A DNA stretch of 24,334 nt, taken from a virus. A model generated the notes under the pieces. It had not been told where the DNA came from. It saw nothing but the letters and a program-made list of their open reading frames with translations, and did no database searches. Every line of letters begins with the position of its first letter. Position 1 is the first letter of the stretch. Positions 3,001-23,080 of this stretch are shown here, in pieces. Position numbers and translations under genes: made by a program. Location of the stretch: the IMG/VR virus record IMGVR_UViG_3300020421_001525, positions 1 through 24,334 of that record; one strand, given 5' to 3'.

Positions 3001-6000
3001 TTGAAGGCACTGTAGTATTAACTTGTACTTGGAAGGTATCGCTTGTCTTATTCATTACCTTCAACCAAGAACTAGATGCAGGATCTTTCTTATGCTCAAT
3101 ACCATCAGTCATAGCCTGATTTGCTACGAAACTATGTGCTGTGGTGTTGGTAGAAGGAATAATATCTAATACAGTAACATCGAATGTTTGTCCTGAAGCA
3201 TTAGAAATTTCCAACCACTTATTACTTGGATAATCAGTATACCTAGGATATGCGTGTTGTGTTTGATTTGTGTCTTCTGTACAAGTGAATGTAAGTGCAC
3301 CATCTTTAAATCTAATCCAATCACCATCAGATAAGTTGTGTGCAACACCAACATCTACTGTTAGTACACCTGTACTACCATCATATTGAGTACCAGTACT
3401 AGCAGTAAAGGAATCAGTTATCGCTCTAGGATATGCGTGATCATCAGCCTGTCCATTTTCATCACAACGGAATATAACAGCACCGTCAGCAAATTGTACA
3501 TAATCTCCATTATCAAACCCGTGACTGGTAATAGTAACTTCCATAATACCCGTTGATGGGGTATAAGTTGCATTAGTTGGTGTTTGACCTACCTGAGGTG
3601 AGAATAGATGAGGAGTTGTATTTGAAGATTTACCAACGTTTGTTACAATAACACCATCTTGCTTAACAATACCATTTACAAGAGCAGAAACAAATGTGTG
3701 AACGGTCTCGTTAGTAGAAGGTAAAGTCTCTAAACATTGTATATCAAAAGTATTAGGTGTAACATTTGATACAGATATCCACTTATCACTAATAGGATCT
3801 GTTGCTCTAGGATATGGATGACTGGTTAAGTTACCATCTTCAGCACAAGTAAAGGTTAATGATCCATCTGCAATCTTAATATTATCTCCACTTGTTAGTC
3901 CGTGACCTTGAGATGTAATAGCATTTGCACCAGCACCTTGGAATGTATGTGGAACATTATGACTAATAGCACCTTTGCCACCATTAATATTAACAGTTAC
4001 GCTAGTCTCATCTGCCTTAAGAATCGGTAAGAACACATCATAAGCATAATCAGCACCACTTGTAGTATTAGCACCTGTTGCTCTAGGATATGTCTTGGTT
4101 TGAGTTACGCCATTGTACTCACAACTGAATGATAGTGAGTTAGCAGTGATCTTAATACTATCGTAAGTAGTAAGTTTATGTCCAGCACCTAAAGTTATTT
4201 GCAAATCACCAGATGCAGGACTATATGCAGCATTTGATGGTGTAAATTCATATGTAGGTACTGTTAGAGTTACTATTCCAGTATCAGGAGCATATGCAGC
4301 ATTGGTAGCAGTAAGAGGAGTACCTTCATACTTGATATAAGCAGCATCATCATAATATGGATCGGCTATAGTACCAACACCAACTTCTATTGGTGCAGAT
4401 GATCCTTGGAATGTATGAGTATAATTACCACCACTAATTAATGCACCAGCAGTAGCACTTATGAATGTATGAGCAGAATTAACACTAATAGCACCTTGGC
4501 CACCATTAACGTTAAGTGTAATAGTAGTTCCAGTTGCTGATGTAATCTCTAATGGAGTATCGTAAGCATAGTCAGAACCACTAGATGTCCCTGCTCCAGT
4601 TGCTCTTGGATATGTACTTTGACTAGTGGCTGATGCTATACCAACGTTACAAGAAACTGTAGTTCCTGTTACAGCAATAATTCCAATTGGAGTATTGTAT
4701 ACAGGGTCAGTTGTTCTTGGATATGGATGATCAGTAGCGTGATTATCTGCATCACAAGTAAAGGTTACCTTACCAGCACCAATAGTTATAGTATTTGATG
4801 CTCTCTTAATAGCACCTGGTGCACTACTTACAAATGTATGTGCATCTGTATTTGTAGAAGGGATTGTATCTAATACTTGGATATCAAATGTATCTGTCTG
4901 AACATTAGAAATTGCAACCCACTTATTACTAATAGGATCAGTAGCACGAGGATATGCAGTTGTTACATTACCACTTACAACACCAACATTACAAGTAATA
5001 GTACCACCAGAAGGATCTACAGCATCAATTGCAATAGCAGTATTATATGCAGGGTCGGTTGCACGAGGATATGTCTTAGTCTTGACGTTACCGTCAGCAG
5101 TACAAGTAAATGATAACTTATCAGCACCAATAGTTACTGTGTCGCTAGTTGTAAAACTATGTGCTCCAATGGTCATTACACAAAGACCAGTATTAGGATC
5201 ATATGTAGCAGATGTTACATCTTTCTGGACACTACCAGCAGTAATTGTAATAGCATTAGTTGATGTTCCACCAACCCACGTATGTGCTGAACCTACACCA
5301 TATTGACATTTAAATGTAACTGCACCATCATCAAGATAAACTAGATCACCATTAGAGAAGGTATGACCAGTAACCTCCAAGGTCATAATACCTGTAGTTG
5401 GATTATAAGTAGTGCCCGATCCTGCTTGATGTGAAGTAGCAGCAGCTAATCCAGTAGTAGATCCAACAGTTAATTCTAATAAACCTGTTACTGGATTATA
5501 ATCAGCGTCAGTTATATCTTTTTGAACACCATCAATTGTAACTGCATTTGTTACTGTACCACCGCTATAAATGTGAGTTCCAACAGCAGCAGGACACTCA
5601 AAAGTTAATGAATCTGTAGCAAGTTTAATACTTGTACCTGTAGATAAATTATGAGAACCAATGGTTAATACCATATCACCCGATGTAGGGTTATATGTAG
5701 CATTTGATACATCATAATTTACAATAGGTGATGCACCTACATCAATAGTAAATGTCCCACCTGACTGGTCTACAGATTTAATTTGAACTGTTTCACCACT
5801 AATAGGATCGGATGGACGTGGGTAGGTTTTATTACCAGAACCCATTGTACAACTGAATATTAATGAATTGTCTGGGATTCTAACAAATTGACCAGTAGTG
5901 TAAGAATGAGTTCCAATATTTAATTCTAGAATACCTGTTGCTGGTGTGTAAGTAGCATCACTAACAGTTTGTAATGTACCAGTAGCCATTCTTGCTACTG

Positions 6001-9000
6001 CTTCTTCAGCAACGAAAATCTTGTTATCTGATATTAGTTTTGCAGCATCGATGAATGTATTTGCTACAGGATTGTCGATATTGTAAGGATCAGCATATAC
6101 ACCGATTGAATTTTGTGTTGTTCCTGTAAATGTATGTACATAATTACCACCAGAAATAATAGCATCATTAGCAGCACTAATAAATCTATGAGTGTAACCT
6201 CCACCACTAATTACTGCTCCTGGAAGTGATCCAAGATAGGTATGAGGTGTTACATTGGTAGAAGGAGCTGTATTCAATACGTTAATGGTAATAGTACCAT
6301 TAGATTGATCAGAGGCCTTGATATTAATTGCAGTATCGTGGAATGGATCTTTCTTCTTACTAATACCATCAGCAACTGCTGAAACAAATACGTGAGTATT
6401 AGTATTTGTAGAAGGAATTGCATCTAAAACAGTAACTTCAAATACTGTAGTATCAGCCTGAGTATTAGAAACCTTTAACCATCTATCGTGTGGATAATCC
6501 GTTTCTCTAGGATATGTTTTTGTCTGACCACCAGATGCAGCACCAACATTAACTGTAATAGTACCAGCACCTTGATCTACAGAATCAATATCAATTGATG
6601 TATTATAAGCAGGATCTCCAATACGAGGATATGTGTGGGTAGTAGCATTACTATCCGCATCACAAGTAAATGCTATAGCATTTGCAGCAATTAATACAGT
6701 GTCACTGGTTGTTAGAGAATGAGTTCCAATTGTAAGAACCATCTCTCCATTAGAAGAATTATAATTTGCACCAATAACATTGTAGTTAGTTCCACCAGAA
6801 GAAAGGGCATCAATAGAAGTTCCACCAACATATGTGTGGTTTGTAGTACCATAATCACAACTAAGTGATAATGAACCATCAGCAAATTTAATCCAATCAC
6901 CATCTACTAATCCGTGGTCACCAGTTGTGGTAACACTCATAATACCTGTTGTTGGATTGTATGTTGTGCCAGTAGTTGCGGTTAATGGAATTGTAGCTGT
7001 TCTAGGATATGAATATGTTCCACTACCTTCTGTACAACTAAAGGTTATAGAACCATCTCTTAACTTAATACTTTCGTTTGTGTTTAAACTATGTGTACCA
7101 ATAGTTAGAACCATATCACCCGTTTGAGGGTCATATTGAGCATCACTAACGTTATGATTTACTAAAGGAGTAGAACCAACTTGAAGTGTAATCTTACCCT
7201 TTTCTAACTCGATAGCATTAGGTACTGAACTTACATAAGTGTGTGCATCAGTGTTAGTAGAAGGAATTGTATCTAATACTGATATATCAAATGTATTAGT
7301 TTGTACATTTGAAATTGGCATAAACTTGCCACTAATAGCATCAGTAGCACGTGGATATGCAGAACCAGGAGAACTTACACCAACATCAACTGTAATAGTT
7401 GTGCTACCTACTGCTTTAATTCCAATTGCTTTATTGTATACAGGGTCAGTAGTACGTGGATAAGAGTGATCAGAACCAAAGTTGTCTTCATCACACTGGA
7501 ATGTTAATGATCCAGCAGCAATAGTAATTGTATCTACAAGTGTAAGATTATGGCCAGCACCAATAGTTAATATTAAATCACCAGTGCTAGGAGTATACTG
7601 AGCATTGGTGACATCCATTTGAGAACCACCTGTGACAGTTATAGCATTGGTTGCAGTTCCACCTGTATAGTTGTGAGTTCCACCACCATAGGTACAACTA
7701 AATGTTATTCCACCATCAGCAATTTTAACTTTATCTCCATTCTCAAATCCGTGATCTGGAACGGTAACAGTCATAATACCTGTAGTACCACTATAAACTG
7801 CACCAGTAGCAGTATGGAAAGTAGATCCAGTACTTACGATATTAACAGCAGTGTCATAGTAAGGATCGGTTGTTCTAGGATAAGTCTTGACTGTAGCCTG
7901 ATCATCCATCTCACAACTGAATGATAGTGAGTTAGGAGCAATCTTAACAGCAGTATTTGGTTTAAGGTTATGAGATCCAATAGTTAGTTCTAATAAACCT
8001 GTAGCAGGATCATAGGAACCATCAGTAGGAGTATGAGTAATATTGGTTGTAGCACCTACATTAACAGTAACATCATCACCTGATACATTTGTAATGGCCA
8101 AAGTTGACCTGTAAGCAGGATCACCTTGTCTTGGATAAGTCTTATCTCCAGTTCCCATTGCACAACTAAATGTTAGTGCGTTATCAGCAATGGTTATGAA
8201 ATCTTCTGTAGTAAGCTCGTGATTTGGTATAGTTAGTACAAATGTACCATTAACAGGAGTGTATACTGCATTAGAAGGTGTTAGACTGAAGTTAGATGTT
8301 GCTGCTCTCTGATAATCATATAGATTGTCTATACCAAACTTATTACGTACCGCAAGGATAGTCATATCCTTCAAATACTTCATAGCCCATAAAGTTGCTT
8401 CTACTTCACCTTCAATATGCTTAATCTCAGAATTAGGATCTGAAGGATCTAACAAATACTCTTTAGCAGCATCAAATGTGTTACTATTACCACCTTGAAT
8501 AAGGTCATTTGCCATTGCCCTAAGAACAGACTTAAGGTCAACAATACACTGATTTCTACCTAATCCTGGATATTGGAAATATTCAGGTTTGAATTTACTA
8601 GTATCATCCAATATACCAACTGATTCTTCTGCTAGTACAGAAGCATTGTCTTTAATGATATTAGCAGCATCTAGATACTTGTTACCTCGGAAATATCTCT
8701 TAGCAACGATTTCACCTCTTGCTCCAGAAGTTTGGCCAACAACAAAGTCATTTACTAACCAATTAGTTGCATCACCAATATCTAATTCTACAATCTTACC
8801 AACTTGTCTTGGTGCTTCACTAAAGGTAATCTTACTAGTACCAATACCACCTGGTGTTAAAGTAAATGCAACATCAGGTTCTTGTATAACACCATCTAAA
8901 GAAACGTATAAATGATCATTTTCGGTAATAGTAATACCAAGATCAAATTCTTTAGTAGTACCATCAAATTGAGAAGTGATATTAGTCGCTTCTAGCATCC

Positions 9001-12000
9001 ATTCAGCATTATTAGTATCATCCTGGAATTTCATCGACTTTCCGTAGAAAGTTACACCAGGAACAGCAATACCAGTACGATCATCAATATATGGTCCTAA
9101 TGGCGGTGAAGCAAAGGTTATTGTCGATCCACTGATTGTATAAGCAGTATCAGGATCCTGTAAAACACCATCTAAAGTAACGATTAATTGTTTTGCGTTA
9201 TATGGAGATAGTACTTCATTGATATCTTTCTTGAATAATGTAAATTGAGTCGTACCAGTGATTGTACCATCAGACTGAATAGCACCATCAAATTCTGGTG
9301 ATAGATCTAAGTCAAATACTTCAATTTCAACGTTATTCTGTTCACTATAGTTAATAGTTCCCTTACCACGTTGTTTCGACATAGAATCGACTCTAACGTG
9401 GGATTGAGTAATCTTTCTTGACTTATGAGCACAAGTAACACCTAAAACGCCTGGTTCTAGGATACTAAGAACAGCACCGAAGCCATTATCCTTAATACCC
9501 GATTGTGGGGTGTCAATAGTCTTTGGTTGCGTTCCATCACCTTCAGACTCAATTAAGACCTCTCCAAAGAGGTTAAATCCAGCAGGATGGGTAAAACGCT
9601 TAACAAAGTCTCTCCAGTCGTTAATAGAGATTGTAGACTTAACTACGTAAGAATAATCTTGATAATAGACTCCATCTTGGACTTTTTGTGAAACAGCACT
9701 TAATTTACTTCTATCACTTGAATATGAACCAACTGAAGTACTTGTAGGTCCAATTTCAGGAACAATGTCTGCTACAAAGATTTTCTGGATACTTGCATAA
9801 CTACGAAGTGTTTCACCGTAGATTTGATACCTAGAATCGAAGTTTCCGTAAATACCCTTCAAACGAAGAATATTAATACCATCAACCCAATAATCGACTC
9901 TACCAGAAGCAATTACGTCTCCACCAAGGTTTCTTTGCGTAATTAGCTCTCCATTCAAGAATGCCTTATCTGGCATATTGTTTAGAGTCATTACAATAGG
10001 TGGATTGACTTGAGGAGTCAATGTTGGGTCATTATTGAAGTCTTTACCCGAAGAAATGATTTCTAAGGTTGCTAACTTACCAATATCGTCTCCGTGAGAA
10101 AATAACTTGACATCAGACTCATAAAGACGTAAAGTAGTTGTATCTGGGTAATCAATACCTTCAACTGTAGGAATAATACGGCCTACACTTCCATCTGGTC
10201 TTAATTCAACATTAAACTTAGCATTTGCTCCATTTCCAATATTTTCAAGCAATACAACGGGTTTTGAGTAATTTAATCCAGTATCAGTAACTGTAACAGA
10301 TACAATTCTACCATCGATGATATTTGGAGTAAAAGCACCTCTAAAACGCTTATTTAAGAAGACACCAGGAACTAAAGGTGGCATCGTATAGTTTTTACCA
10401 CCACTAATGACTTTAACCCTCTTAATCGCTCCTACAGCGTATAGAGAGTCTGTATAATACTGAACGTTCGTAAATCCTTCATTTTGAGGAGTAGTAGTAA
10501 GCCTATAAGCAAACTCCATCTCATATCCATAAAAGACGGGATGTTTACCTGCAAATGGATCTTCTACAAGAGTAAAGAACTGATTTTCGCTATCAACCTT
10601 ATCAGCTACCTCTCCATAATAAATTTTAGGAGGAATATCTAGTACAGGTGTACTATTCCAAGTAGATCCATCTATAGGTATACCATATCCCAATTGGAAT
10701 GTAGTAAACGATCCAGTAGCACCTGGTTTAGTCTCTGATTCAAAAGATTGTATTAAATCGGTAGTTTTATAAACATTCTCATAGAATTTAAGATTCCTGT
10801 TGAGTAGAGAGGTATCACTAGTGTCAAATAGGTAACGATATGTTCTTTGAATATCTAATGTAATATTTTTATTCCATTCTGCCTCTCCATCCTTCCTAAA
10901 CCTAAATTTCAAAGAAGTATCTGGAGCACTGGCTATAGAAACCTGTTTAGCAGGAGTACTACCATCTAAAAATGCAGATGATGTAGTAATTACTGCATCA
11001 CCTTCATTCTGATAATAAACAGTAAGGTCTTGAGTCTCAGAATTGTAAGAATCTACAAATGCAGTATTTCCACCAAAGGATATACTAGCATCTTTCGTAA
11101 ATCTATAAACATTAGATACTAACGTTACAGCTACACCTTCTATATGATCTTCTGCTTCAGATCCATTGACACCACGTCCTACAGTTATTTCATTACCTGA
11201 AACACTAACAACTTCGCAGAACTCATCAGTAATCTGAACTATATCACCTGTTGAAAAACCAGATGCACTACTAGTTAATATGACAGAATCAGATTTGGCA
11301 CAACCAGCAGCATCAACAAAGAATGAGCAATCTTGACTACCAACGTTACCACCTAGTAAACTAGATTGTATAGTTAAGATATTTCCGTAACCATACCCAT
11401 CACCTTTATTTGCTATAATAAATGACTCTACGTGGCCACCAGCATTTGTAGTAAGGGTAATTGTTGCACCTTGACCAGTACCAGAAACATTATTAAGGCT
11501 AAGTCCAGCAAAAGTAGTTGATGGAGTAAATCCACTACCAGCATTAACCACGGTTAATCTAGCTACCCCAGATCCATTGATATCAGTGACTTTTGTGGGT
11601 GCATTTAATTTAATTGTATTGTATTTCTTAGTCTCCACATAATATTTCTGTGTAGAGATACTAGAATCAGGTTGAACGGTAACAATAACATCATCACCAA
11701 CTGCTAAACCGTGTCTCTTGGTAGCAGTTCTAAGAACAGCAATATTATCTTCTATATCAAGTAATGTAAATTCTTTAGATAAAGATCTAACATTTACAAT
11801 AGTTGCTGAATCTTCACCAATAGCACAACCATTACCATTAGCAAAGAATCCAAGTTTATTATAAGATGTGCTAGGGATAGTAACAGTATTACCATCTACA
11901 ACAGTAGTTAATAAATCTGGGTTAGCATTCTGTAATTCTACAATAACAGTATTTTTATCAAATACGTTCCGTAAGACCTTACCAATAGCAGCTTCGTGTG

Positions 12001-15000
12001 ATACACCACCATCATTAACAGCATAAACAATTAATGATCCAACATCTGCTACAATAGTGTCGTCAAAGGTTATATTGTAAATTTCTGTAGTTGAACCGAT
12101 TGGATCAAATTTATTAAACGTTCCTGTAACGTTTTTAACTACAAATTTATTATCTTCTTCAATCTTACCTATAACTGTTCCTGTAGCACCGCTATTGTCC
12201 TGTGTAAGGACAGTATTGTGATTTAAGTATACATTATCATTACAAGTAAGATAAACGTTCTTAGGAGTGTTACAGGACAAAGATGCAACTTCTTGACCTT
12301 GAATTTGGTCTACAGCAGCAAATAGTCCATCTCCATTATCATTAATAGAATTATCAACATATAGAACGTCTTCATTCGTGAAATTGAGAGAAGACTGATG
12401 AACCTCAACATTTGTAATTGGCCCATACTCAATACCACTAACTCTAGAAGTTAATAGTTCTCCTGTCTTATCATTTGCACTAACAGTCCTTCTACGGACT
12501 CCATCTGGTAAAAATGCTTGTCTAGACTTAGGTTTCCAGTTTTCTTCGATAGGAACGTTATAAAATGCCTCACCAATTGTATATGGGAAGGTAGGTGCTT
12601 CCGTATCATCAGTAGTCATAAAATATGCATAGACACCATTGGGAAATTCTGGTGTTGTGCAAAAACGTCCATTATTAGCGTCTAGATCACCTAAACGCTC
12701 TTCAAATTCATAATCATTAGTAAAACGACCTAATGAGTAAGTTGTTGTGCTTGGTGCATCGGATATTCTACTTGTTTTGAGTTTCCAACTAGATCCCATC
12801 CTTTTTACAGTAGGATTGGCAGCAGTAACGTCCTGATAAGCATTTTCGTATCCAAAACTACCATATATGGGATTTCCATCATAAGCCCATCCCAATATTG
12901 GAGAATGACTCTTATTTGATAAAGGGTTACCTTGACCATCGACATTATCTACTCTTTGCACCTTTAAAGAAGAAGGAGCAATAATATGACCATATGCATA
13001 ACCATAATTAGGGTCATTAGAGTCTTCTACGATACCAGAAGCATTTCCATTGTCAACAGACATCTCTAAGTATCTGTTATACTCCCATCTAGTCAAAACG
13101 GCAGTTGCAGATGCCATTCTAGACCTAGGAACCAATGTGACAGTTGTAGAACTGTCCACATAGTCAAAACCGCCAGATTGCTTAGTGAATCCAGTAATTT
13201 TACCTGTTGTGACATCTATTTGACAGGTAAAGAGTGCACCACCACCTTTTCCACTAGCATCGTAGATAAAAACGTCTGGTGGCTCTGTATAATCAGAACC
13301 AGCATCAATTACTTGTGCTTGGGTATTAACAGAGAGATAAATGTTGGCAATTTCACCTTGTTGAATCAAAACAGTGAATTGACCTCCCGATCCACTGGTA
13401 AATGTGACATCTGGAGCACTGGTATACCCAGATCCAGGATTTGTAACATTAACAGCAGTAATTTCACCCAACCCATTAATTTCAGCAGTTGCAGTTGCAC
13501 CACCTTCAATATTAACAGTAGGTGGAACACTATAATTCCTTCCTGGGTCAGTAATAGTAATTTTTTGAACTGAACCGTAATCTAAACCTCTTTCTGACTT
13601 ATGATTAAGTATAGGAACACCATTAACCAAAACACCAACTTCTTTTGAGGTCGTAATGTTCTTAGAACTAGCCTCTATTGGTTTTCTAGGTAAAATCTTA
13701 AGATATTCTTGATCTTGAGGTGTTTGAATATTATCAAATGGGCCAATAGCATAAGATGGGAATCCAGAAGACGCAATATAGTAATTTTCAGCATCTCTAT
13801 AGATTGCAGAGACATCTGAAAGAAGTTTATCCTTAATATTGTTAGTTCCTACGTTACTTGGATCGGAACCAATTAATTTTGAGAAATTTTCATTAATAAT
13901 CCATTCATTAGATAATGGTAAGTCATCAGAAAATCCAGATGACCTAAATTCAACCATATTGTTGAAATTAACGTATGGAATACCACCACTAGCTACATCA
14001 AAGTAGTTGTCTGCGGTTTCATCATACTCTAGACCAGAACTTGCCTCTGGTTCAATACCTTTAGACCTCAATCCAGATACAAGACCGTATATACGGAGAT
14101 GCACTTCACCAGAAACTCCATTTTCGTTCCAATGACCAACTAAGTTGTTTTTAGTGAAGGCTCTAATTAATTTCTTATGTGTGTACTCCTGTTTGTTCTG
14201 ACTATTAACAGCATCCCTCTCTTTTATGATAAATTGAGTTGCAGTTTTACTACTATAGGTAATTTCTTCAATTCCTATGATAACTCGACCATCTCTTTCT
14301 GGAAAACCAATAGTAGAGAAGACATCTATACGATCTCCAGGTCCAGCAGTGCTAGAAAGTTCATTCATTAAGAATGTACGTCTTGCTATAGCAAAATCAC
14401 CCTCTTTAGAACCAGGTGAGATAGTTAAAGTGTACTGTAGACTACCTTGGTAAGGTTCACCGACTATATTGTCGATAATTGCATTCGCAGCAGTTAATTC
14501 TGGGTTGTATGGATCTGGACTCTGTACTACAGGGTTACCAACAACCTTTCTAATGTCACCAGATATAGCTTCTACAACTAAAAGTTCTTTATTGTTCCAT
14601 CCAGACTCTGATGCCTTATAAACATTCTCTTTTGGATAGATGATGTCAGGTTTGACACTAAACAGCATCTGGAAGATGAACTCCAGTGACTGTGGTGTAC
14701 CTTTGACGTTATAAAAGTCCTTTATCCTCTTAACTAAGAGGTTCTTATTAGTTTGGTCTCTAAGATAAGGATATGGAAAACCACTAGTATACTGTTCTTC
14801 GTAATTCTTGATTAAAGCAGCCAATAAAAGGTTGCTTAGGTTGTTAACAACAGCATATTGCTTATGTACAGCAGCTGCAGAGTTAACAAATTTAATATCG
14901 TTGTATAAATCGCCAAGTTCTGTCTTTGCACTATAACCACGAATACAATTCTTAAATTGTGTCTGAGTTCTGGAAGTATATAAGAAGATTTCCTGATCGA

Positions 15001-15295
15001 TCATTATCATCCCATTACTATTTGGGAATCCATCAGTATTATCTACTGTAATATCAATATTATCAGTACCTAACGTTATTTCTACTTCTAAGCTTGCTGT
15101 CTTAACAAGAATCTCAGGTGAGAATGTATCTACATCAAGATATTTCTCAAAATTATTGATTACATCTTGCGGACCTTCGCTTATCGATAAGGCCTCATAG
15201 TATTTCGACAGAAAATTCGTTACGAGGGGATAATCCTCGACAATGAAATCTGGTAACTGACTTTCGATCAGTGCTGCTAGACTTGGACCTGCCAT
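1..15295 (-). CDS. Giant baseplate-associated structural protein, partial (at least 5,098 aa)
   Basis: One continuous frame runs from ATG at 15295 to the left edge with no stop, so the C-terminus is missing. The start lies three bases after the gp6 stop (tandem TGA TAA), which implies translational coupling. It occupies the place of T4 gene 7, but I see no clear full-length gp7 match. The N-terminus (residues 1-220, opening MAGPSLAALIESQLPDF) resembles N-termini of large virion proteins of marine T4-like phages. Next come Gly-x-Gly-Tyr/Pro-Pro beta repeats (from about residue 590), a YHYH-type motif (802-812), helical modules (about 2209-2318), a Cys/YPR repeat array (about 2330-4295), a second helical module (about 4293-4362), two short helical CxxVESA(I/V)NT segments (near 4382 and 4442), and more beta-type sequence to the edge. 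It is probably a fibre or adhesin attached to the baseplate wedge. The frame is very secure; the function is inferred. Confidence 0.93.
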   Translation of the reverse strand, partial: MAGPSLAALIESQLPDFIVEDYPLVTNFLSKYYEALSISEGPQDVINNFEKYLDVDTFSPEILVKTASLEVEITLGTDNIDITVDNTDGFPNSNGMIMIDQEIFLYTSRTQTQFKNCIRGYSAKTELGDLYNDIKFVNSAAAVHKQYAVVNNLSNLLLAALIKNYEEQYTSGFPYPYLRDQTNKNLLVKRIKDFYNVKGTPQSLEFIFQMLFSVKPDIIYPKENVYKASESGWNNKELLVVEAISGDIRKVVGNPVVQSPDPYNPELTAANAIIDNIVGEPYQGSLQYTLTISPGSKEGDFAIARRTFLMNELSSTAGPGDRIDVFSTIGFPERDGRVIIGIEEITYSSKTATQFIIKERDAVNSQNKQEYTHKKLIRAFTKNNLVGHWNENGVSGEVHLRIYGLVSGLRSKGIEPEASSGLEYDETADNYFDVASGGIPYVNFNNMVEFRSSGFSDDLPLSNEWIINENFSKLIGSDPSNVGTNNIKDKLLSDVSAIYRDAENYYIASSGFPSYAIGPFDNIQTPQDQEYLKILPRKPIEASSKNITTSKEVGVLVNGVPILNHKSERGLDYGSVQKITITDPGRNYSVPPTVNIEGGATATAEINGLGEITAVNVTNPGSGYTSAPDVTFTSGSGGQFTVLIQQGEIANIYLSVNTQAQVIDAGSDYTEPPDVFIYDASGKGGGALFTCQIDVTTGKITGFTKQSGGFDYVDSSTTVTLVPRSRMASATAVLTRWEYNRYLEMSVDNGNASGIVEDSNDPNYGYAYGHIIAPSSLKVQRVDNVDGQGNPLSNKSHSPILGWAYDGNPIYGSFGYENAYQDVTAANPTVKRMGSSWKLKTSRISDAPSTTTYSLGRFTNDYEFEERLGDLDANNGRFCTTPEFPNGVYAYFMTTDDTEAPTFPYTIGEAFYNVPIEENWKPKSRQAFLPDGVRRRTVSANDKTGELLTSRVSGIEYGPITNVEVHQSSLNFTNEDVLYVDNSINDNGDGLFAAVDQIQGQEVASLSCNTPKNVYLTCNDNVYLNHNTVLTQDNSGATGTVIGKIEEDNKFVVKNVTGTFNKFDPIGSTTEIYNITFDDTIVADVGSLIVYAVNDGGVSHEAAIGKVLRNVFDKNTVIVELQNANPDLLTTVVDGNTVTIPSTSYNKLGFFANGNGCAIGEDSATIVNVRSLSKEFTLLDIEDNIAVLRTATKRHGLAVGDDVIVTVQPDSSISTQKYYVETKKYNTIKLNAPTKVTDINGSGVARLTVVNAGSGFTPSTTFAGLSLNNVSGTGQGATITLTTNAGGHVESFIIANKGDGYGYGNILTIQSSLLGGNVGSQDCSFFVDAAGCAKSDSVILTSSASGFSTGDIVQITDEFCEVVSVSGNEITVGRGVNGSEAEDHIEGVAVTLVSNVYRFTKDASISFGGNTAFVDSYNSETQDLTVYYQNEGDAVITTSSAFLDGSTPAKQVSIASAPDTSLKFRFRKDGEAEWNKNITLDIQRTYRYLFDTSDTSLLNRNLKFYENVYKTTDLIQSFESETKPGATGSFTTFQLGYGIPIDGSTWNSTPVLDIPPKIYYGEVADKVDSENQFFTLVEDPFAGKHPVFYGYEMEFAYRLTTTPQNEGFTNVQYYTDSLYAVGAIKRVKVISGGKNYTMPPLVPGVFLNKRFRGAFTPNIIDGRIVSVTVTDTGLNYSKPVVLLENIGNGANAKFNVELRPDGSVGRIIPTVEGIDYPDTTTLRLYESDVKLFSHGDDIGKLATLEIISSGKDFNNDPTLTPQVNPPIVMTLNNMPDKAFLNGELITQRNLGGDVIASGRVDYWVDGINILRLKGIYGNFDSRYQIYGETLRSYASIQKIFVADIVPEIGPTSTSVGSYSSDRSKLSAVSQKVQDGVYYQDYSYVVKSTISINDWRDFVKRFTHPAGFNLFGEVLIESEGDGTQPKTIDTPQSGIKDNGFGAVLSILEPGVLGVTCAHKSRKITQSHVRVDSMSKQRGKGTINYSEQNNVEIEVFDLDLSPEFDGAIQSDGTITGTTQFTLFKKDINEVLSPYNAKQLIVTLDGVLQDPDTAYTISGSTITFASPPLGPYIDDRTGIAVPGVTFYGKSMKFQDDTNNAEWMLEATNITSQFDGTTKEFDLGITITENDHLYVSLDGVIQEPDVAFTLTPGGIGTSKITFSEAPRQVGKIVELDIGDATNWLVNDFVVGQTSGARGEIVAKRYFRGNKYLDAANIIKDNASVLAEESVGILDDTSKFKPEYFQYPGLGRNQCIVDLKSVLRAMANDLIQGGNSNTFDAAKEYLLDPSDPNSEIKHIEGEVEATLWAMKYLKDMTILAVRNKFGIDNLYDYQRAATSNFSLTPSNAVYTPVNGTFVLTIPNHELTTEDFITIADNALTFSCAMGTGDKTYPRQGDPAYRSTLAITNVSGDDVTVNVGATTNITHTPTDGSYDPATGLLELTIGSHNLKPNTAVKIAPNSLSFSCEMDDQATVKTYPRTTDPYYDTAVNIVSTGSTFHTATGAVYSGTTGIMTVTVPDHGFENGDKVKIADGGITFSCTYGGGTHNYTGGTATNAITVTGGSQMDVTNAQYTPSTGDLILTIGAGHNLTLVDTITIAAGSLTFQCDEDNFGSDHSYPRTTDPVYNKAIGIKAVGSTTITVDVGVSSPGSAYPRATDAISGKFMPISNVQTNTFDISVLDTIPSTNTDAHTYVSSVPNAIELEKGKITLQVGSTPLVNHNVSDAQYDPQTGDMVLTIGTHSLNTNESIKLRDGSITFSCTEGSGTYSYPRTATIPLTATTGTTYNPTTGIMSVTTTGDHGLVDGDWIKFADGSLSLSCDYGTTNHTYVGGTSIDALSSGGTNYNVIGANYNSSNGEMVLTIGTHSLTTSDTVLIAANAIAFTCDADSNATTHTYPRIGDPAYNTSIDIDSVDQGAGTITVNVGAASGGQTKTYPRETDYPHDRWLKVSNTQADTTVFEVTVLDAIPSTNTNTHVFVSAVADGISKKKDPFHDTAINIKASDQSNGTITINVLNTAPSTNVTPHTYLGSLPGAVISGGGYTHRFISAANDAIISGGNYVHTFTGTTQNSIGVYADPYNIDNPVANTFIDAAKLISDNKIFVAEEAVARMATGTLQTVSDATYTPATGILELNIGTHSYTTGQFVRIPDNSLIFSCTMGSGNKTYPRPSDPISGETVQIKSVDQSGGTFTIDVGASPIVNYDVSNATYNPTSGDMVLTIGSHNLSTGTSIKLATDSLTFECPAAVGTHIYSGGTVTNAVTIDGVQKDITDADYNPVTGLLELTVGSTTGLAAATSHQAGSGTTYNPTTGIMTLEVTGHTFSNGDLVYLDDGAVTFKCQYGVGSAHTWVGGTSTNAITITAGSVQKDVTSATYDPNTGLCVMTIGAHSFTTSDTVTIGADKLSFTCTADGNVKTKTYPRATDPAYNTAIAIDAVDPSGGTITCNVGVVSGNVTTAYPRATDPISNKWVAISNVQTDTFDIQVLDTIPSTNTDAHTFVSSAPGAIKRASNTITIGAGKVTFTCDADNHATDHPYPRTTDPVYNTPIGIIAVTGTTVSCNVGIASATSQSTYPRATGAGTSSGSDYAYDTPLEITSATGTTITLNVNGGQGAISVNSAHTFISATAGALISGGNYTHTFQGSSAPIEVGVGTIADPYYDDAAYIKYEGTPLTATNAAYAPDTGIVTLTVPTYEFTPSNAAYSPASGDLQITLGAGHKLTTYDSIKITANSLSFSCEYNGVTQTKTYPRATGANTTSGADYAYDVFLPILKADETSVTVNINGGKGAISHNVPHTFQGAGANAITSQGHGLTSGDNIKIADGSLTFTCAEDGNLTSHPYPRATDPISDKWISVSNVTPNTFDIQCLETLPSTNETVHTFVSALVNGIVKQDGVIVTNVGKSSNTTPHLFSPQVGQTPTNATYTPSTGIMEVTITSHGFDNGDYVQFADGAVIFRCDENGQADDHAYPRAITDSFTASTGTQYDGSTGVLTVDVGVAHNLSDGDWIRFKDGALTFTCTEDTNQTQHAYPRYTDYPSNKWLEISNASGQTFDVTVLDIIPSTNTTAHSFVANQAMTDGIEHKKDPASSSWLKVMNKTSDTFQVQVNTTVPSSNVTTHVYQGSLPNSVKRAVILTGGDYQHTFDRALSNSITANTGAKFTPTNATFTPDTGILVLTIGSGHSLTTSNTITIDPNAIVMRCQMDANETPHSYPRPTDPAYGRTLNLQSVDAGAGTITLFVGKSLPLAYEPTVGRYDPITGDLIMDLGEHRLSRGTGFKFFRDALSLTCSMDNHETVHTYPRASSHDALGDCVDDVKDILKAIVWNLKYGGNNKVWDAADLFIDRSGYLEHIQHQIPEVLNVMGHLKTILANIIRSNTVNAVGSHGLTQVKDPSITKESNECAAVESAVNTFVTLIEDAVQSPTTFEANVARTIPERWPIVHSTLTANRDLTITVDSLPQCAQVESAINTLFSIVTTTIKETAFNNNNYLMTITQDFPNPNKIQVEMTEKEFLAGEDVQSEATLTTVTSTSTDVIAPGIQQLFFGYKHGKYYKLDSIEPQFNSAQTIFELERSGVPFYAERNQNIVIILNGVIQQNKVAYRIEDNYVIFNEPPSTGSACFILYYFGLDPERILLGYNIEQPGTFKKFFKLTLDTQVIIPVEGADCWVSTDASSNAHTYKYSYARGRIYKQNWEPGSRNLIFVEGVTAQKVNWEGGTISITRDRGDSASLLDANVTSVEELVNVDLRERLFNRQDRLESNLKPGDLIQIDGEADTRSIIRAAREALVTSGYDSDTTVGSFFRSYEYEVVVNVGPYSGQIEGDGGQAVARIDAELRYHTLVSSRQLNQEYLPGDILVQYADQNNTSSAIVWQATVKNYVPARKTVELYSNYLDGNPYTDPVEDNFRPGEKIYIDGTVGTESIGLQYLKPGGVNSLVVSKRDNSTYFDNQFNWRNDNVLNKGEDRLGGAFIPANASANNISQEYGYTSSIYSDDLEDQISKNYREPPVLVFRSASLLDENGVAIGSPTGGGARANAIVTRGEVSDLEIISSGSGYKVPPQVLFTRGYFVIRKDPINIKNLTTFGINREIDLRCGLRSYIDTIFKGGSAPQWRSMLPL
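2200..2425 (-). other. Helical module after the repeat array (copy 2)
   Basis: Around C4296 the giant protein reads CVDDVKDILKAIVWNLKYGG, then VWDAADLF and a helix with EVLNVMGHLKTI. It is clearly related to the module at C2250 (shared Cys, VL.A...NL..GGN, F/WDAA). The two copies bracket the Cys/YPR array. Two shorter duplicated helices follow (CAAVESAVNTF and CAQVESAINTL, nt about 2150 and 1970). Confidence 0.6.
2425..8295 (-). repeat. Tandem Cys/YPR protein repeats within the giant gene (about 18 units)
   Basis: Residues about 2330-4295 of the giant protein are built from diverged units averaging roughly 110 residues. A typical unit reads Y-x-P-x-T-G-x-L-x-L-T-I-G-x-H-x-L, then a D-x-I-x-I strand, then (S/A)-L-x-F-(T/S)-C, an acidic stretch, H-x-Y-P-R-x-T-D-P, and an I-T-V-x-V-G strand. 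I count 18 copies of the hydrophobic-x-F-x-C core and 18 of Y-P-R. Linkers include H-T-F-V-S-A and S-G-G-x-Y-x-H-x-F motifs. Related DNA is visible: blocks near 3156, 4855, 6410 and 7256 share a GTAGAAGG-type start and a similar continuation. The alternating strand pattern suggests a beta-rich fibre. The single conserved cysteine per unit is unusual for an extracellular phage fibre. Confidence 0.9.
8340..8675 (-). other. Helical modules before the repeat array (copy 1)
   Basis: Two adjoining segments of the giant protein sit just upstream of the repeat array. The first (from residue 2209) reads DAANIIKDN...AEESVGIL. The second (around C2250) reads CIVDLKSVLRAMANDLIQGG, followed by FDAAKEYL and a long helix with EVEATLWAM. 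The first recurs at residue 3083 (DAAKLISDN...AEEAVARM). The second recurs after the array at C4296. They look like helical spacer or trimerisation modules; the role is inferred. Confidence 0.6.
12860..12895 (-). other. YHYH-type motif in the giant protein
   Basis: Residues 802-812 read GWAYDGNPIYG, preceded by HSPIL. This matches the core of the YHYH domain (Pfam YHYH family), which is found in large structural proteins of marine phages and in secreted bacterial proteins. The biochemical role of the domain is not established. The call rests on this short motif alone, read by eye. Confidence 0.6.
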
Positions 15296-15298
15296 TTA

Positions 15299-17113
15299 TC
15301 AGATTAGTGCTTCTTGGGTGATCAGGAATACGCTAGACTGCAAATCTAAACTTAGATATGCTTCACGATAAGCGTATATGTCTTTGTTTAAAGGAGTAAC
15401 ACGAAGTTCGATCCTTTCATCATCATAACTTCCTTTGATTATATTTAACCGATTCAACATTACCTCTCCTTTATCATAATCTATTGTTCCTTGCTGTGAA
15501 TTAAGGATAAATCGGTTTTGAGTGGTAGAATCTATTTTATAAAGGTAAACATTACCTTTTTGATCATCGGCCAAATAAACAACATCAGCAGGATAGTCTG
15601 CAACAACAAATCCACTACTTTGAACAGCAGGTGCTGTACACCCACTCTTCACTACATTTTGATAGCAGACCTCATATTGAGTAATTGTATTCAATACTGG
15701 TGTAAAATCCTTCCTTAATTTAATACTAGTCTCATTGGAAGTGATTGCATCATCAGTAGCATCAACTATACCAACAATACGACTGTATTTAAACCTACCA
15801 TTAAATTTTTCTAAATCTGATGTGGATCTATACTTGGTAAGTGAAGATACAACTGCTGCTTTCAACTCTGACTCATTTAAAGTTGTCTTGGATTTGTTAT
15901 AGTATACGTTTGATTGCAATTCAACGTATGTAATCGAAGGATCAACAATTTCAGGTGTAACTGAAACTACAGCATACTTTTTAAGATCAGTAGAAATTAA
16001 ATTTTTAGTATACTGTGATAATTTAGCAGAGTAAGACGGTTTTATTACGATTTTGACTTTACCGTATTCTGGTGGGCTAGCGTCTTCTCCACCATAACAA
16101 ACGATATCAGCAATTGCAGGGAAAATACGACGGATAATGGATTCGTAGTCGTCTGCTGTAACTGCTCTATTTTGTGCGTTAAAAAACTTCGGAGCATTTC
16201 TTTTGACAGAATCAATCGATTCAAGAGTTTCTCCTCCAGATGCTGCTGTAGTGGTTGTTAATGTAACTGATGGTGCATAATCACTAGCACCAGTGCTATC
16301 TTCTAATACAGCACCGTATGAGAAGACTTTAGCATTATTTGCAGCACCACCATTAGTTGTGATATATGATACTTCGATATAATTGTTTGTGTCTAATTTT
16401 GAACCCAAGATACCATCACCGAAGATGATCTCATAACGTTCATCCTCACCTTCTTGTAAGAAGTATACCTGTGATGTGCCATCAAACCCAATAATATTAT
16501 CAGCTAAGCGATACTCAACCACACTAGTACTACTAAATGTTGGTCTAATAGTAACTTTGAGAGAACTTGTATCGATTCCTGGGTTCTGAAGGATAAACCT
16601 TTGGGGAACTCCTGCATTAAAGGTAAAAGTTTCGAGAACATAATTTCCTTCCTTTATTTCTACACCACTAAAGTTAGCAATACTCTGAGTATTCAGTCCA
16701 ACAACATAATCTTTAGCAGTAATGAAAGAATATGTAGTACCATTGATTCTAGTAAGAAATTGTGACCCTCTAGGAAGTTTAACAATCTCTGGGATGCTTT
16801 GCAAAGCACTAAAATCAGCAGCAATATCAATAACTGCTGTTGGAGATACAGATGACTTGGGAAGATACCCTATCTGCTTGGCCAGAGACACCACGTTGTC
16901 CCTGAGGGTCGCTGATTCAAGGAACGCCTCATTTACTACCATATTAGCGTTAAACGCCGTGTAATACGTGTTATACGCTAATACATCTAATATGGTAGAA
17001 AGAGTCGAACCTTCAAAATCGTAATCAGTGAAATCACTATTACTACGCAGGTATTCCTTCAGAGAGGATTTAATCTCTGTAAAGTCTAAATTGGCAACTT
17101 GAACGTAAGACAT
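15299..17113 (-). CDS. 6: Baseplate wedge protein gp6 (T4-like)
   Basis: This 604-residue protein belongs to the T4 gp6 / baseplate J-like family, which forms the inner ring of the baseplate wedge and holds the wedges together. The N-terminus is typical of the marine T4-like branch: ILDVLAYNTYYTAFNANM, then NEAFLESATLRDNVV and AKQIGYLPKS. A J-like core follows, with a VKRNAPKFFNAQNRAVTADD segment near residues 305-325, then VKIVIKPS. T4 gp6 is somewhat longer (about 660 aa). The ATG immediately follows the gp25 TAA stop with no gap, and the stop is three bases from the giant gene, so gp25, gp6 and the giant protein appear translationally coupled. Confidence 0.93.
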   Translation of the reverse strand: MSYVQVANLDFTEIKSSLKEYLRSNSDFTDYDFEGSTLSTILDVLAYNTYYTAFNANMVVNEAFLESATLRDNVVSLAKQIGYLPKSSVSPTAVIDIAADFSALQSIPEIVKLPRGSQFLTRINGTTYSFITAKDYVVGLNTQSIANFSGVEIKEGNYVLETFTFNAGVPQRFILQNPGIDTSSLKVTIRPTFSSTSVVEYRLADNIIGFDGTSQVYFLQEGEDERYEIIFGDGILGSKLDTNNYIEVSYITTNGGAANNAKVFSYGAVLEDSTGASDYAPSVTLTTTTAASGGETLESIDSVKRNAPKFFNAQNRAVTADDYESIIRRIFPAIADIVCYGGEDASPPEYGKVKIVIKPSYSAKLSQYTKNLISTDLKKYAVVSVTPEIVDPSITYVELQSNVYYNKSKTTLNESELKAAVVSSLTKYRSTSDLEKFNGRFKYSRIVGIVDATDDAITSNETSIKLRKDFTPVLNTITQYEVCYQNVVKSGCTAPAVQSSGFVVADYPADVVYLADDQKGNVYLYKIDSTTQNRFILNSQQGTIDYDKGEVMLNRLNIIKGSYDDERIELRVTPLNKDIYAYREAYLSLDLQSSVFLITQEALI

Positions 17114-17512
17114 TTATCGGGTTCTTTCTAGAAAGAATTCTACATCACGAACTTGGACATCAGTAGGTATACCAATAATCTCAAACGAAATAGAGCATTC
17201 AAAACCGTTACCGTCATAATCAGCATCTACATCGCAACGAAGTAGATTGATTCTTGGTTCGTATTTGTTTATTACATATTCAATCTCTTCCTTTAAAAGA
17301 GATGCAGTTGCAGCATCAAGAGGTTCAAATAACAAATCCGCAACATTACTACCTAGATCAGGCTTGAAGAATCTTTCCCCCTTCCTGGTCATCACAATAT
17401 TATATAACGCTCTTTTAACCGCATCTTCATCCGTGGTTATAAGAACGTCTTCTGTAACTGGGTTCATACCCATTGAAATGGATAGATCCTTGAAGTCTAC
17501 CTTTGTAGGCAT
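17114..17512 (-). CDS. 25: Baseplate wedge protein gp25 (T4-like, GPW/gp25 family)
   Basis: This 132-residue protein has the same length as T4 gp25. Diagnostic features are the TRKGERFFKPDLGS stretch at residues 42-55, the EPR motif at 85-87 (the conserved core of the gp25/GPW family, also found in type VI secretion baseplates), and the SFEIIGIP strand near the C-terminus. gp25 binds gp6 to form the inner baseplate core and helps prime sheath assembly. The gene is adjacent to gene 6, as expected for partners. It is separated by 24 bases from the SET-domain gene upstream, where a CTAAATA motif could supply an internal late promoter. Confidence 0.95.
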   Translation of the reverse strand: MPTKVDFKDLSISMGMNPVTEDVLITTDEDAVKRALYNIVMTRKGERFFKPDLGSNVADLLFEPLDAATASLLKEEIEYVINKYEPRINLLRCDVDADYDGNGFECSISFEIIGIPTDVQVRDVEFFLERTR

Positions 17513-17536: not shown

Positions 17537-17836
17537 TTATTTAGCGACTTCGTAAAAGGTATACTTCAAAAATAACTCTTCTCCCTTTTTAATGGGTCTT
17601 ATAGTACGCATATGATATATCTTACCCCATTCTTCTTTTTCAAATACTTTAACGCAATTAGGAGTTTCACTGTGGTTAACAAACCCACCTAAAGGGGTTC
17701 TCATAATATCTTCATCAACCACAACGTGTGATATACCCAGATAAACATCATCAGGTATATCCTCCAAAGCAAATAGGCCCTGTCCAGCGACAGGGCTATC
17801 TTTTACGTGTAAACACCTAGGTAATGCTTGATACAT
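17537..17836 (-). CDS. Small SET-domain protein (putative protein-lysine methyltransferase)
   Basis: This 99-residue protein matches a minimal SET domain. It has a GxG turn at residues 18-20 (AGQGLFA), the signature GGFVNHSETPNC at 50-61 (the N-H-S..P-N-C element that binds S-adenosylmethionine), and GEELFLKYTF at 85-94 with the conserved E-L and catalytic-type tyrosine (Y92). SET proteins transfer methyl groups to protein lysines. This one is shorter than most SET cores (about 130 aa) and lacks obvious pre-SET or post-SET cysteine clusters, so activity is not assured. It overlaps the upstream 62-aa gene by one base (TGATG) and precedes gene 25, which suggests late co-expression with baseplate proteins. 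The substrate is unknown; a virion or host protein are both possible. Confidence 0.85.
   Translation of the reverse strand: MYQALPRCLHVKDSPVAGQGLFALEDIPDDVYLGISHVVVDEDIMRTPLGGFVNHSETPNCVKVFEKEEWGKIYHMRTIRPIKKGEELFLKYTFYEVAK
17539..17545 (-). promoter_or_regulatory. Possible internal late promoter before gene 25 (CTAAATA)
   Basis: CTAAATA overlaps the last codons and stop of the SET gene (GCT AAA TAA), 26 bases before the gene 25 ATG. The distance suits a late promoter for genes 25, 6 and the giant gene. Because it also encodes the C-terminal Ala-Lys-stop it may be coincidental. Confidence 0.4.
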
Positions 17837-18024
17837 CAGTATTTTCTAGGATGAGTAGTAATTTCACCGCCTACAAGTTTTACATTGTGAACTACCTTGG
17901 ATGTCTTACGAGCAAAATGATAATCTAATCTCTTTTTACCCCAGTACAAACCTACTAACCAGAGAGTGAGGATAAATCCTTCACCATATCCAATTTCAGT
18001 CCAGATCTTATAGATCCATTCCAT
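17836..18024 (-). CDS. Small membrane protein, function unknown
   Basis: This 62-residue protein has one hydrophobic segment at about residues 13-29 (YGEGFILTLWLVGLYWG) followed by a basic stretch (KKRLDYHFARK), so the C-terminus is likely cytoplasmic. I do not recognise a family. The start overlaps the stop of the 45-aa gene by one base (TAATG) and the stop overlaps the SET gene start by one base, placing it firmly in the late operon. Its role is unknown. Confidence 0.75.
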   Translation of the reverse strand: MEWIYKIWTEIGYGEGFILTLWLVGLYWGKKRLDYHFARKTSKVVHNVKLVGGEITTHPRKY

Positions 18025-18161
18025 TAACGAAATTCCCCAATTTTACAAAGTTTAGCATCAACAGATTCAGGAGTAGCCCGAACTCTATACTCCACATTAT
18101 CTCTTTTGGAGAGTGTCGTCAAGAGTTCTGCTACCTTGTTCCACATATTGTTGTAGTTCAT
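18024..18161 (-). CDS. Small hypothetical protein (45 aa)
   Basis: The frame starts MNYNNMWNKVAELL and ends LCKIGEFR. The coding call rests on both junctions: its ATG overlaps the upstream TGA by four bases (ATGA), and its TAA overlaps the ATG of the 62-aa gene (TAATG). It is mostly polar, with one amphipathic helix at residues 6-18. No family is recognised. Confidence 0.65.
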   Translation of the reverse strand: MNYNNMWNKVAELLTTLSKRDNVEYRVRATPESVDAKLCKIGEFR

Positions 18162-18298
18162 CTCTTACCTTGACCTCTGTACGGTTTACGTGCCTTATTA
18201 CGTGAAGTAGCAGAATACTTAGTGTGAGCACCAGAGCCTTGACTGGTCTTTTTAGGGGTCGGTTCAATTTTGTCTGAGTTGTTTGAATAAAGTGCCAT
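18158..18298 (-). CDS. Small basic structural-operon protein (46 aa)
   Basis: The protein starts MALYSNNSDKIEPTPKKTSQ and is strongly basic at the C-terminus (SATSRNKARKPYRGQGKR). It has no predicted hydrophobic segment and is probably disordered. Its ATG overlaps the stop of the PAAR-like gene (TAATG), and its stop overlaps the next start (ATGA). From memory, similar small basic proteins occur at this place in marine T4-like phages, but I cannot name a function. The basic tail could bind nucleic acid or acidic protein surfaces. Confidence 0.75.
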   Translation of the reverse strand: MALYSNNSDKIEPTPKKTSQGSGAHTKYSATSRNKARKPYRGQGKR

Positions 18299-18846
18299 TA
18301 GTTAGAGCAATCGGTTACAGAGTTGTCACCAGGTGATTGAGATCCTGATCCACCACCACCTCCTATAGAAGGAATTGATAGTATAGGGAAAGATCCCATT
18401 CCACCCATTGTAGCAGCTAAAGCAGCAAGTTTGCTAATTGAGCTTCCACCTTTACATAATAACACATTAGGGGCACCTACCGCAACCTTTGATCCGCAAG
18501 TAATCTGTGTACCTATCATAGCAGGAGGAAGTCCAGTTGGACAAATCTTAGGTCCAATCTTCGCCATTACAGCATCTGTTTCTGGATCACCTGTTTTGGG
18601 TACCATCTGAGGGACAGATGGAGCACCTACTCCGCAATCAACGGTAGCACAACCAACCCCAACAGTGCCTGGATGGCACGCAGGGTTCTTTCCACACGGT
18701 TTACAGTGTGTAAGACGCACTTGTGTACTCACAAGAGGTGGAATTTTAGTTACTAGGACACTTGTAACGGGTGAAGGGGCATATCCAGCTGGTGGCCAGC
18801 ATCCGTGACCCGTACAAACACCTGTAGATAGTCCAAAAGCAGACAT
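18298..18846 (-). CDS. PAAR-like baseplate spike tip protein, cysteine-rich
   Basis: This 182-residue protein opens with GVCTGHGCWPP, then a TKIPPLVSTQVRLTHC turn, ACHPGTVGVGC, and later CGSKVAVGAPNVLLCKG. This pattern resembles PAAR-type proteins that cap the central spike (T4 gp5.4 in T4). Eleven cysteines are present (11, 16, 48, 51, 57, 66, 71, 102, 117, 131, 180) along with His 14, 47 and 58, which could form the metal site at the tip. The C-terminus is a low-complexity Gly/Ser tail (about 150-175). It is translationally coupled to the 843-aa gene (TAATG) and lies upstream of genes 25 and 6, like gene 5.4 upstream of gene 6 in T4. The PAAR call is by eye. Confidence 0.72.
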   Translation of the reverse strand: MSAFGLSTGVCTGHGCWPPAGYAPSPVTSVLVTKIPPLVSTQVRLTHCKPCGKNPACHPGTVGVGCATVDCGVGAPSVPQMVPKTGDPETDAVMAKIGPKICPTGLPPAMIGTQITCGSKVAVGAPNVLLCKGGSSISKLAALAATMGGMGSFPILSIPSIGGGGGSGSQSPGDNSVTDCSN

Positions 18847-21794: not shown

Positions 21795-21801
21795 TATTTA
21801 G
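21795..21801 (-). promoter_or_regulatory. Late promoter candidate (CTAAATA)
   Basis: CTAAATA on the minus strand matches the form of the T4-like late promoter reported for cyanophages (T4 itself uses TATAAATA). It lies 40 bases before the first gene of the structural operon and 48 bases after a strong terminator, a sensible place for a switch to late transcription. Such a 7-mer would be expected a few times by chance in this window, so position is the main support. Confidence 0.6.
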
Positions 21802-22659: not shown

Positions 22660-22772
22660 AGTACCTCTTTCATTAGTTCTTGGATGATGCTCTCATCTTC
22701 TGGACGGTCTGCTTCCTGGAGTGATTCCAGGATCAGATCGTCGAGTGCGTCAGTGTCAAACTTTTGGATCAC
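22656..22772 (-). CDS. Small acidic protein (38 aa), GTG start
   Basis: The frame starts at GTG (read as Met), continues IQKFDTDALDDLILESLQEA and ends QELMKEVL. It is acidic and helical throughout. The GTG overlaps the previous TGA by four bases (GTGA), a standard coupling junction. No family is recognised. Confidence 0.6.
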   Translation of the reverse strand: MIQKFDTDALDDLILESLQEADRPEDESIIQELMKEVL

Positions 22773-23080
22773 TTAATTAACTCCATAGGAACGTTGGGTG
22801 TACAAACTAGACCAACCGAGTCTTGACGGAATGCCTTAGCATATGCCTTGCCGATTGATCTAAGAACTGATTCTAGCATTGACTGGTCAGACTCTGCTGC
22901 CATTATGACAAGAATTTTACAATCCTCACGGGTGCCTTTCCAAAGACCAACGCCGTCGATAATGGTTGCAAAGTCAAGTCTAGGTCCAATCTCAGTTCTG
23001 ATAAAGTCATCGAACATTGCTGGTGAGACTGTGCCCTCGTTAGGGATATCCAGTCCCATCATCAGTTCTAATCGGATCAT
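22769..23080 (-). CDS. Hypothetical protein (103 aa), possibly DUF3574-like
   Basis: The protein begins MIRLELMMGLDIPNEGTVSP, then FDDFIRTEIGPRLDFATIID near residues 23-42, G-x-G-L-W-K-G at 43-49 and an ILVIM strand. The order 'metal-free strand, GL..P..G.VS, F..F....I.PR.....TI.DG.G.W' recalls the DUF3574 family of small ferredoxin-like proteins. I judged this by eye and am not certain. It is 36 bases from the upstream gene, the largest gap in this cassette apart from the composite elements, and is coupled by GTGA to the next gene. Confidence 0.75.
   Translation of the reverse strand: MIRLELMMGLDIPNEGTVSPAMFDDFIRTEIGPRLDFATIIDGVGLWKGTREDCKILVIMAAESDQSMLESVLRSIGKAYAKAFRQDSVGLVCTPNVPMELIK

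Follow-up and report, generated by a model that had tools for sequence, protein, structure and literature searches.

The window analyzed here, namely the whole 24,334-nucleotide stretch forming a 24.3-kb virus record, carries baseplate genes whose nearest counterparts occur in T4-like cyanophages, together with a short gene for a SET-domain protein (hereafter SET protein) lying directly ahead of gp25. The features pertinent to this locus are the following:

17537-17836, minus strand: compact SET-domain protein of 99 residues, putative protein-lysine N-methyltransferase of family PHROG_28741 (Pfam SET, PHROG, AlphaFold2, VIA-align, invariant catalytic residues)
17114-17512, minus strand: gp25 baseplate wedge subunit, the next gene downstream of the SET gene (Pfam GPW_gp25, E 2.5e-15; phrog_261, E 5.9e-51)
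15299-17113, minus strand: gp6 baseplate wedge subunit (phrog_219, E 9.1e-199)
17836-18024, minus strand: ORF of 62 residues immediately upstream of the SET gene, its stop overlapping the SET start (phrog_9048, E 3.5e-12)
18158-18298, minus strand: basic protein of 46 residues related to PHROG_516 (phrog_516, E 4.2e-22; for this search and for the count of phage records given below, the query was a copy lacking the penultimate Lys)
18298-18846, minus strand: PAAR-family tail-tip protein, in the upstream unit (phrog_281, E 9.7e-10)
17538-17544, minus strand: CTAAATA, late-promoter-like motif within the last codons of the SET gene, 25 bases before the gp25 ATG (motif search)
21795-21801, minus strand: CTAAATA, the nearest intergenic copy upstream, candidate late promoter of the unit that would read into the SET gene (motif search)

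Following gp6, positions 2-15295 of the same strand are occupied by an ORF of at least 5098 residues containing many repeated YPRxTDP-like segments. The window also encodes, at 22769-23080 (minus strand), a DUF3574 protein (PF12098, E 9.8e-13).

The SET ORF runs from ATG to TAA, and its start shares one base with the stop of the preceding 62-residue ORF (TGATG), so that the two genes look translationally coupled. A previous reading made from the sequence alone (hereafter the sequence-only reading) had proposed a SET methyltransferase-like gene here, and this was borne out by profile searches: the protein matches Pfam SET (PF00856) with an E value of 1.3e-11 and 45.3 bits, above the cut-off of 22.4 bits, and PHROG_28741 over its full length (E 6.6e-55), a family hitherto labeled as of unknown function. 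Both profiles are also matched by 58 of the 58 aligned family members. Homologues were found at over 170 viral loci in three scans of viral contigs, which were pattern-based and gave no more than 80 relatives each, so that the frequencies do not equate to population estimates; gene calls within these loci are mechanical. Compared with 24 relatives, the SET gene shows dN/dS ratios between 0.03 and 0.24 where computable, typically 0.05-0.07, with dS values ranging from 0.13 to saturation. Ratios of about 0.05 at dS values from about 1 to saturated indicate that the gene is real and constrained, under strong purifying selection.

The motifs quoted in the sequence-only reading are all present in the 99-residue protein, namely GQG at positions 18-20, NHSETPNC at 54-61 and GEELFLKY at 85-92. 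They comprise the features that define membership of the superfamily, i.e. the SAM-binding motifs GxG and NHxxPN and the catalytic tyrosine (Y92) following GEEL. In the alignment of 58 sequences, Y2, S14, G18, G20, G34, R46, T47, P48, G50, G51, F52, N54, H55, P59, N60, E87 and Y92 are invariant. The cofactor-binding residues have thus been kept rather than lost: G18, G20, R46, N54, H55, P59, N60, E87 and Y92 are unchanged in all 130 distinct viral members, a conservation that follows in part from the search patterns themselves (PLGGF[IV]NH and NHSxxPNC), although G18, G20, R46, E87 and Y92 did not belong to the pattern applied to the genome collection. Bacterial members retain G20, R46, N54, H55, N60 and E87 in 52 of 52 sequences and Y92 in 51 of them.

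Structure prediction gave the same picture. The AlphaFold2 model (pLDDT 91.5, pTM 0.80) has SET domains as its nearest folds by Foldseek and VIA-align, in particular those of MLL1 (Z 12.1) and vSET (Z 11.6). By every defining feature tested, in sequence as well as in the predicted fold, the phage protein belongs to the SET superfamily. The parts that shape the groove for the substrate in the majority of SET enzymes, SET-I and post-SET, are reduced or missing here. In our model only a hairpin remains of SET-I, strands 32-40 and 43-46 with a two-residue turn between them, and a profile alignment with KMT2D opens a gap of about 25 residues at the same place; one family member, L161, has nearly 30 additional residues there. 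The protein then ends seven residues past Y92 with no cysteine in this tail, so that the post-SET cysteine domain typical of KMT2 and SUV39 types is absent. Given a reduced SET-I and a missing post-SET, catalysis by the phage protein might require a dimer or a partner.

Among known SET proteins, the KMT2/MLL domains provide the best structural and profile matches and have the SAM and tyrosine motifs in common with the phage protein, which differs from them in having neither pre- nor post-SET, a SET-I about 25 residues shorter and no known partner subunits. Similar in general design is vSET (PBCV-1 A612L, PDB 1n3j/3kma), a viral H3K27 methyltransferase that is equally small and stand-alone, and superimposes on our model with an rmsd of 2.1 over 87 residues at 29% identity. 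However, over the aligned span the phage protein falls short of vSET by about 16 residues, with SET-I cut to a hairpin, and nucleosomal H3 is not available as a substrate to a phage that infects bacteria. PBCV-1 virions contain packaged vSET, which methylates H3K27 (PMC3946773). By inference from this analogy, the phage protein may work like vSET. The SET fold is also common to other entries named 'SET domain containing protein' from uncultured Caudovirales phages (BFVD matches), although these are 128-263 residues long and only 11-32% identical to the 99-residue protein. PHROG_28741 itself, previously without a functional label, is here given a fold and genomic contexts.

The SET gene was said to sit one gene before gp25, embedded in the baseplate operon. 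The first part of this statement holds widely, for gp25 lies directly downstream of the SET gene in 76 loci, whereas the second is overstated, because a conserved late-promoter-like motif separates the two genes. [CA]TAAATA occurs between the SET end and the gp25 start in 75 of the 76 loci (mean of 4.5 after shuffling), which are partly redundant and reduce to 44 distinct junction sequences, 43 of them with the motif. In the 100 bases upstream of the SET gene, it is present in 5 of the 76 loci (3.6 after shuffling). The control consisted of shuffled dinucleotide blocks, and the motif was assessed by sequence only. The same motif lies 17-37 bases ahead of gp25 in six of six SET-less isolates examined. 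NATAAATA is the late promoter reported for S-PM2 and is found in other cyanophages too (PMC2984593). In view of the conserved motif between the genes, gp25 most likely opens its own late unit and the SET gene closes the preceding one; read-through from the SET gene into gp25 is possible, as is late co-expression of the SET gene with virion genes via the upstream unit containing the PAAR protein. As a separate observation, [CA]TAAATA is found at four sites on both strands of the whole window versus 17 expected by shuffling, a four-fold depletion such as would apply to an avoided promoter motif.

A fixed place beside gp25 does not hold across the family. In P-SSM7 the SET gene follows nrdB and a small ORF, and the gp25 slot, about 112 kb away, has no SET gene; in Kolga-type phages it follows the primase/helicase gene. 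Bacterial contigs, too, carry homologues (Flavobacteriaceae, Porticoccaceae and a single-cell genome from the Pelagibacterales), with no tail genes recognized nearby. The Porticoccaceae gene has fabA/fabB-like genes on one side and a peroxiredoxin/ssb-like pair on the other (names read from translations rather than profile hits). The Pelagibacterales homologue (L185:4001-4282) is 63% identical to the window protein and has apparently cellular neighbors. In family samples, the SET profile was matched in 16 of 299 Flavobacteriaceae genomes, 1 of 53 Pelagibacterales and 1 of 201 cyanobacterial ones, while a search of plasmids returned one distant match. The sole cyanobacterial match is on a phage-like contig; an origin of the gene from a cyanobacterial host was consequently rejected, and in this sample the phage gene is no mere duplicate of an enzyme that hosts commonly possess.

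The gene is mobile. Locus L017 has a SET protein 97-98% identical to those of L009 and L013, yet the adjoining gp25 proteins are only 29-34% identical, and the stretch of similar DNA, about 281 bases, does not extend beyond the SET gene. These sequences are most simply explained by exchange of the SET gene among phage lineages. The genes ahead of gp25 vary among SET-less isolates, P-SSM2 having there a 2OG-Fe(II) oxygenase, which identifies the position as an accessory slot. Six phage records contain the SET gene, and the cultured carriers include P-SSM7, P-RSM6 and Kolga. On this comparative evidence, the gene behaves like exchangeable cargo parked ahead of the baseplate genes and not like a dedicated part of a baseplate operon.

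We then considered potential substrates. The sequence-only reading had envisaged a structural protein methylated during assembly, but a dedicated substrate of this kind was not supported by the conservation of lysines. In gp25, none of the lysines is conserved to the level of 85% across 58 distinct sequences from SET carriers. Nine lysines reach this level in gp6 of the carriers, but they are largely common to seven gp6 proteins from phages without a SET gene in the slot (one of the seven, from P-SSM7, has SET elsewhere). Comparison of conservation thus gave no signal for lysines of gp25 or gp6 as SET-specific sites, a pattern which weakens the case for a baseplate substrate.

The Lys/Arg-rich protein related to PHROG_516 was another candidate, with three lysines that are invariant among SET carriers (only carriers being compared). 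PHROG_516 proteins, however, are widespread, with 449 phage records (T4-like cyanophages in nearly every case) versus six with the SET gene, and hence are not SET-specific; the protein was discarded as a dedicated substrate, even if the three invariant lysines leave room for it. Genes of 2OG-Fe(II) oxygenases appear near the SET gene in several unrelated contexts (L128-L154, L029, L036 and L206). A pairing of the two was not retained, for its frequency is 13% at a gene distance of 1, 4-6% at 2-3 and 7-19% at 6-9, without clear enrichment. By elimination, these comparisons favor a host protein or a general phage protein as the substrate.

Taken on balance, the explanation that we favor, and hold to be rather more probable than its converse, is that of a compact, SAM-dependent SET lysine methyltransferase carried as exchangeable cargo by marine phages, made late and acting in trans on a protein not specific to the baseplate. 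In T4-like cyanophage-type genomes the gene would have entered as the last member of the transcription unit that precedes gp25, and would probably be expressed late by read-through from an upstream late promoter. The protein would bind SAM via GxG (18-20) and NHxxPN (54-60), with Y92 as the presumed catalytic tyrosine, and may methylate in trans some protein without particular ties to the T4-like baseplate; a protein of the host, or one found in many phages, is the most likely target. On this reading it is probably active as a lysine methyltransferase.

The gene's recurrent position might instead reflect methylation of a baseplate or tail protein during assembly. The 76 loci with the SET gene directly before gp25, distributed over several gp25 lineages, and the PAAR tail-tip protein among the upstream genes are in line with this possibility, which we nonetheless regard as unlikely: besides the lysine patterns of gp25 and gp6 just described, most T4-like cyanophage isolates make baseplates without a SET gene, and the family also has members remote from tail genes, as well as members on bacterial contigs. 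Recurrence of the slot in several gp25 lineages could still stem from selection favoring late co-expression with virion genes. A narrower form of the favored explanation is an effector resembling vSET, either packaged or made in the cell, that would damp down the host by methylating one of its nucleoid or transcription proteins. The close structural match to vSET speaks for such an effector, but the homologues on bacterial contigs point to a role beyond action against the host, and this narrower proposal seems improbable to us. The reduced SET-I and absent post-SET would also fit a catalytically dead fold serving as a binding module, an idea that is hard to reconcile with strong purifying selection and with SAM motifs and a catalytic tyrosine invariant in 130 viral sequences; we thus consider it very improbable.

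Phage SET proteins as such are of a known kind, for several are already annotated in public databases. The open-licence papers searched contained nothing direct on them, and no full text joined SET domains with cyanophage, pelagiphage or auxiliary metabolic genes; a review of bacterial SET proteins does not mention phages (PMC3980110). In this literature, the compact form, the motif R46-T-P-L-G-G-F, the spread of the family and its location at a promoter edge appear undescribed. Lysine methylation by phages that infect bacteria appears to have received hardly any study, and here a widespread, tightly conserved family moves between phage lineages. It is conceivable, if still doubtful, that this near-minimal SET family constitutes a mobile tool with which marine phages put methyl-lysine on host proteins of bacteria that have no such enzyme. 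If true, phages would be imposing methylation on the proteins of cyanobacterial or SAR11 hosts. The question is directly testable thanks to the cultured carriers P-SSM7, P-RSM6 and Kolga, and so short a natural SET domain may additionally help in asking what minimum is needed for a working fold.
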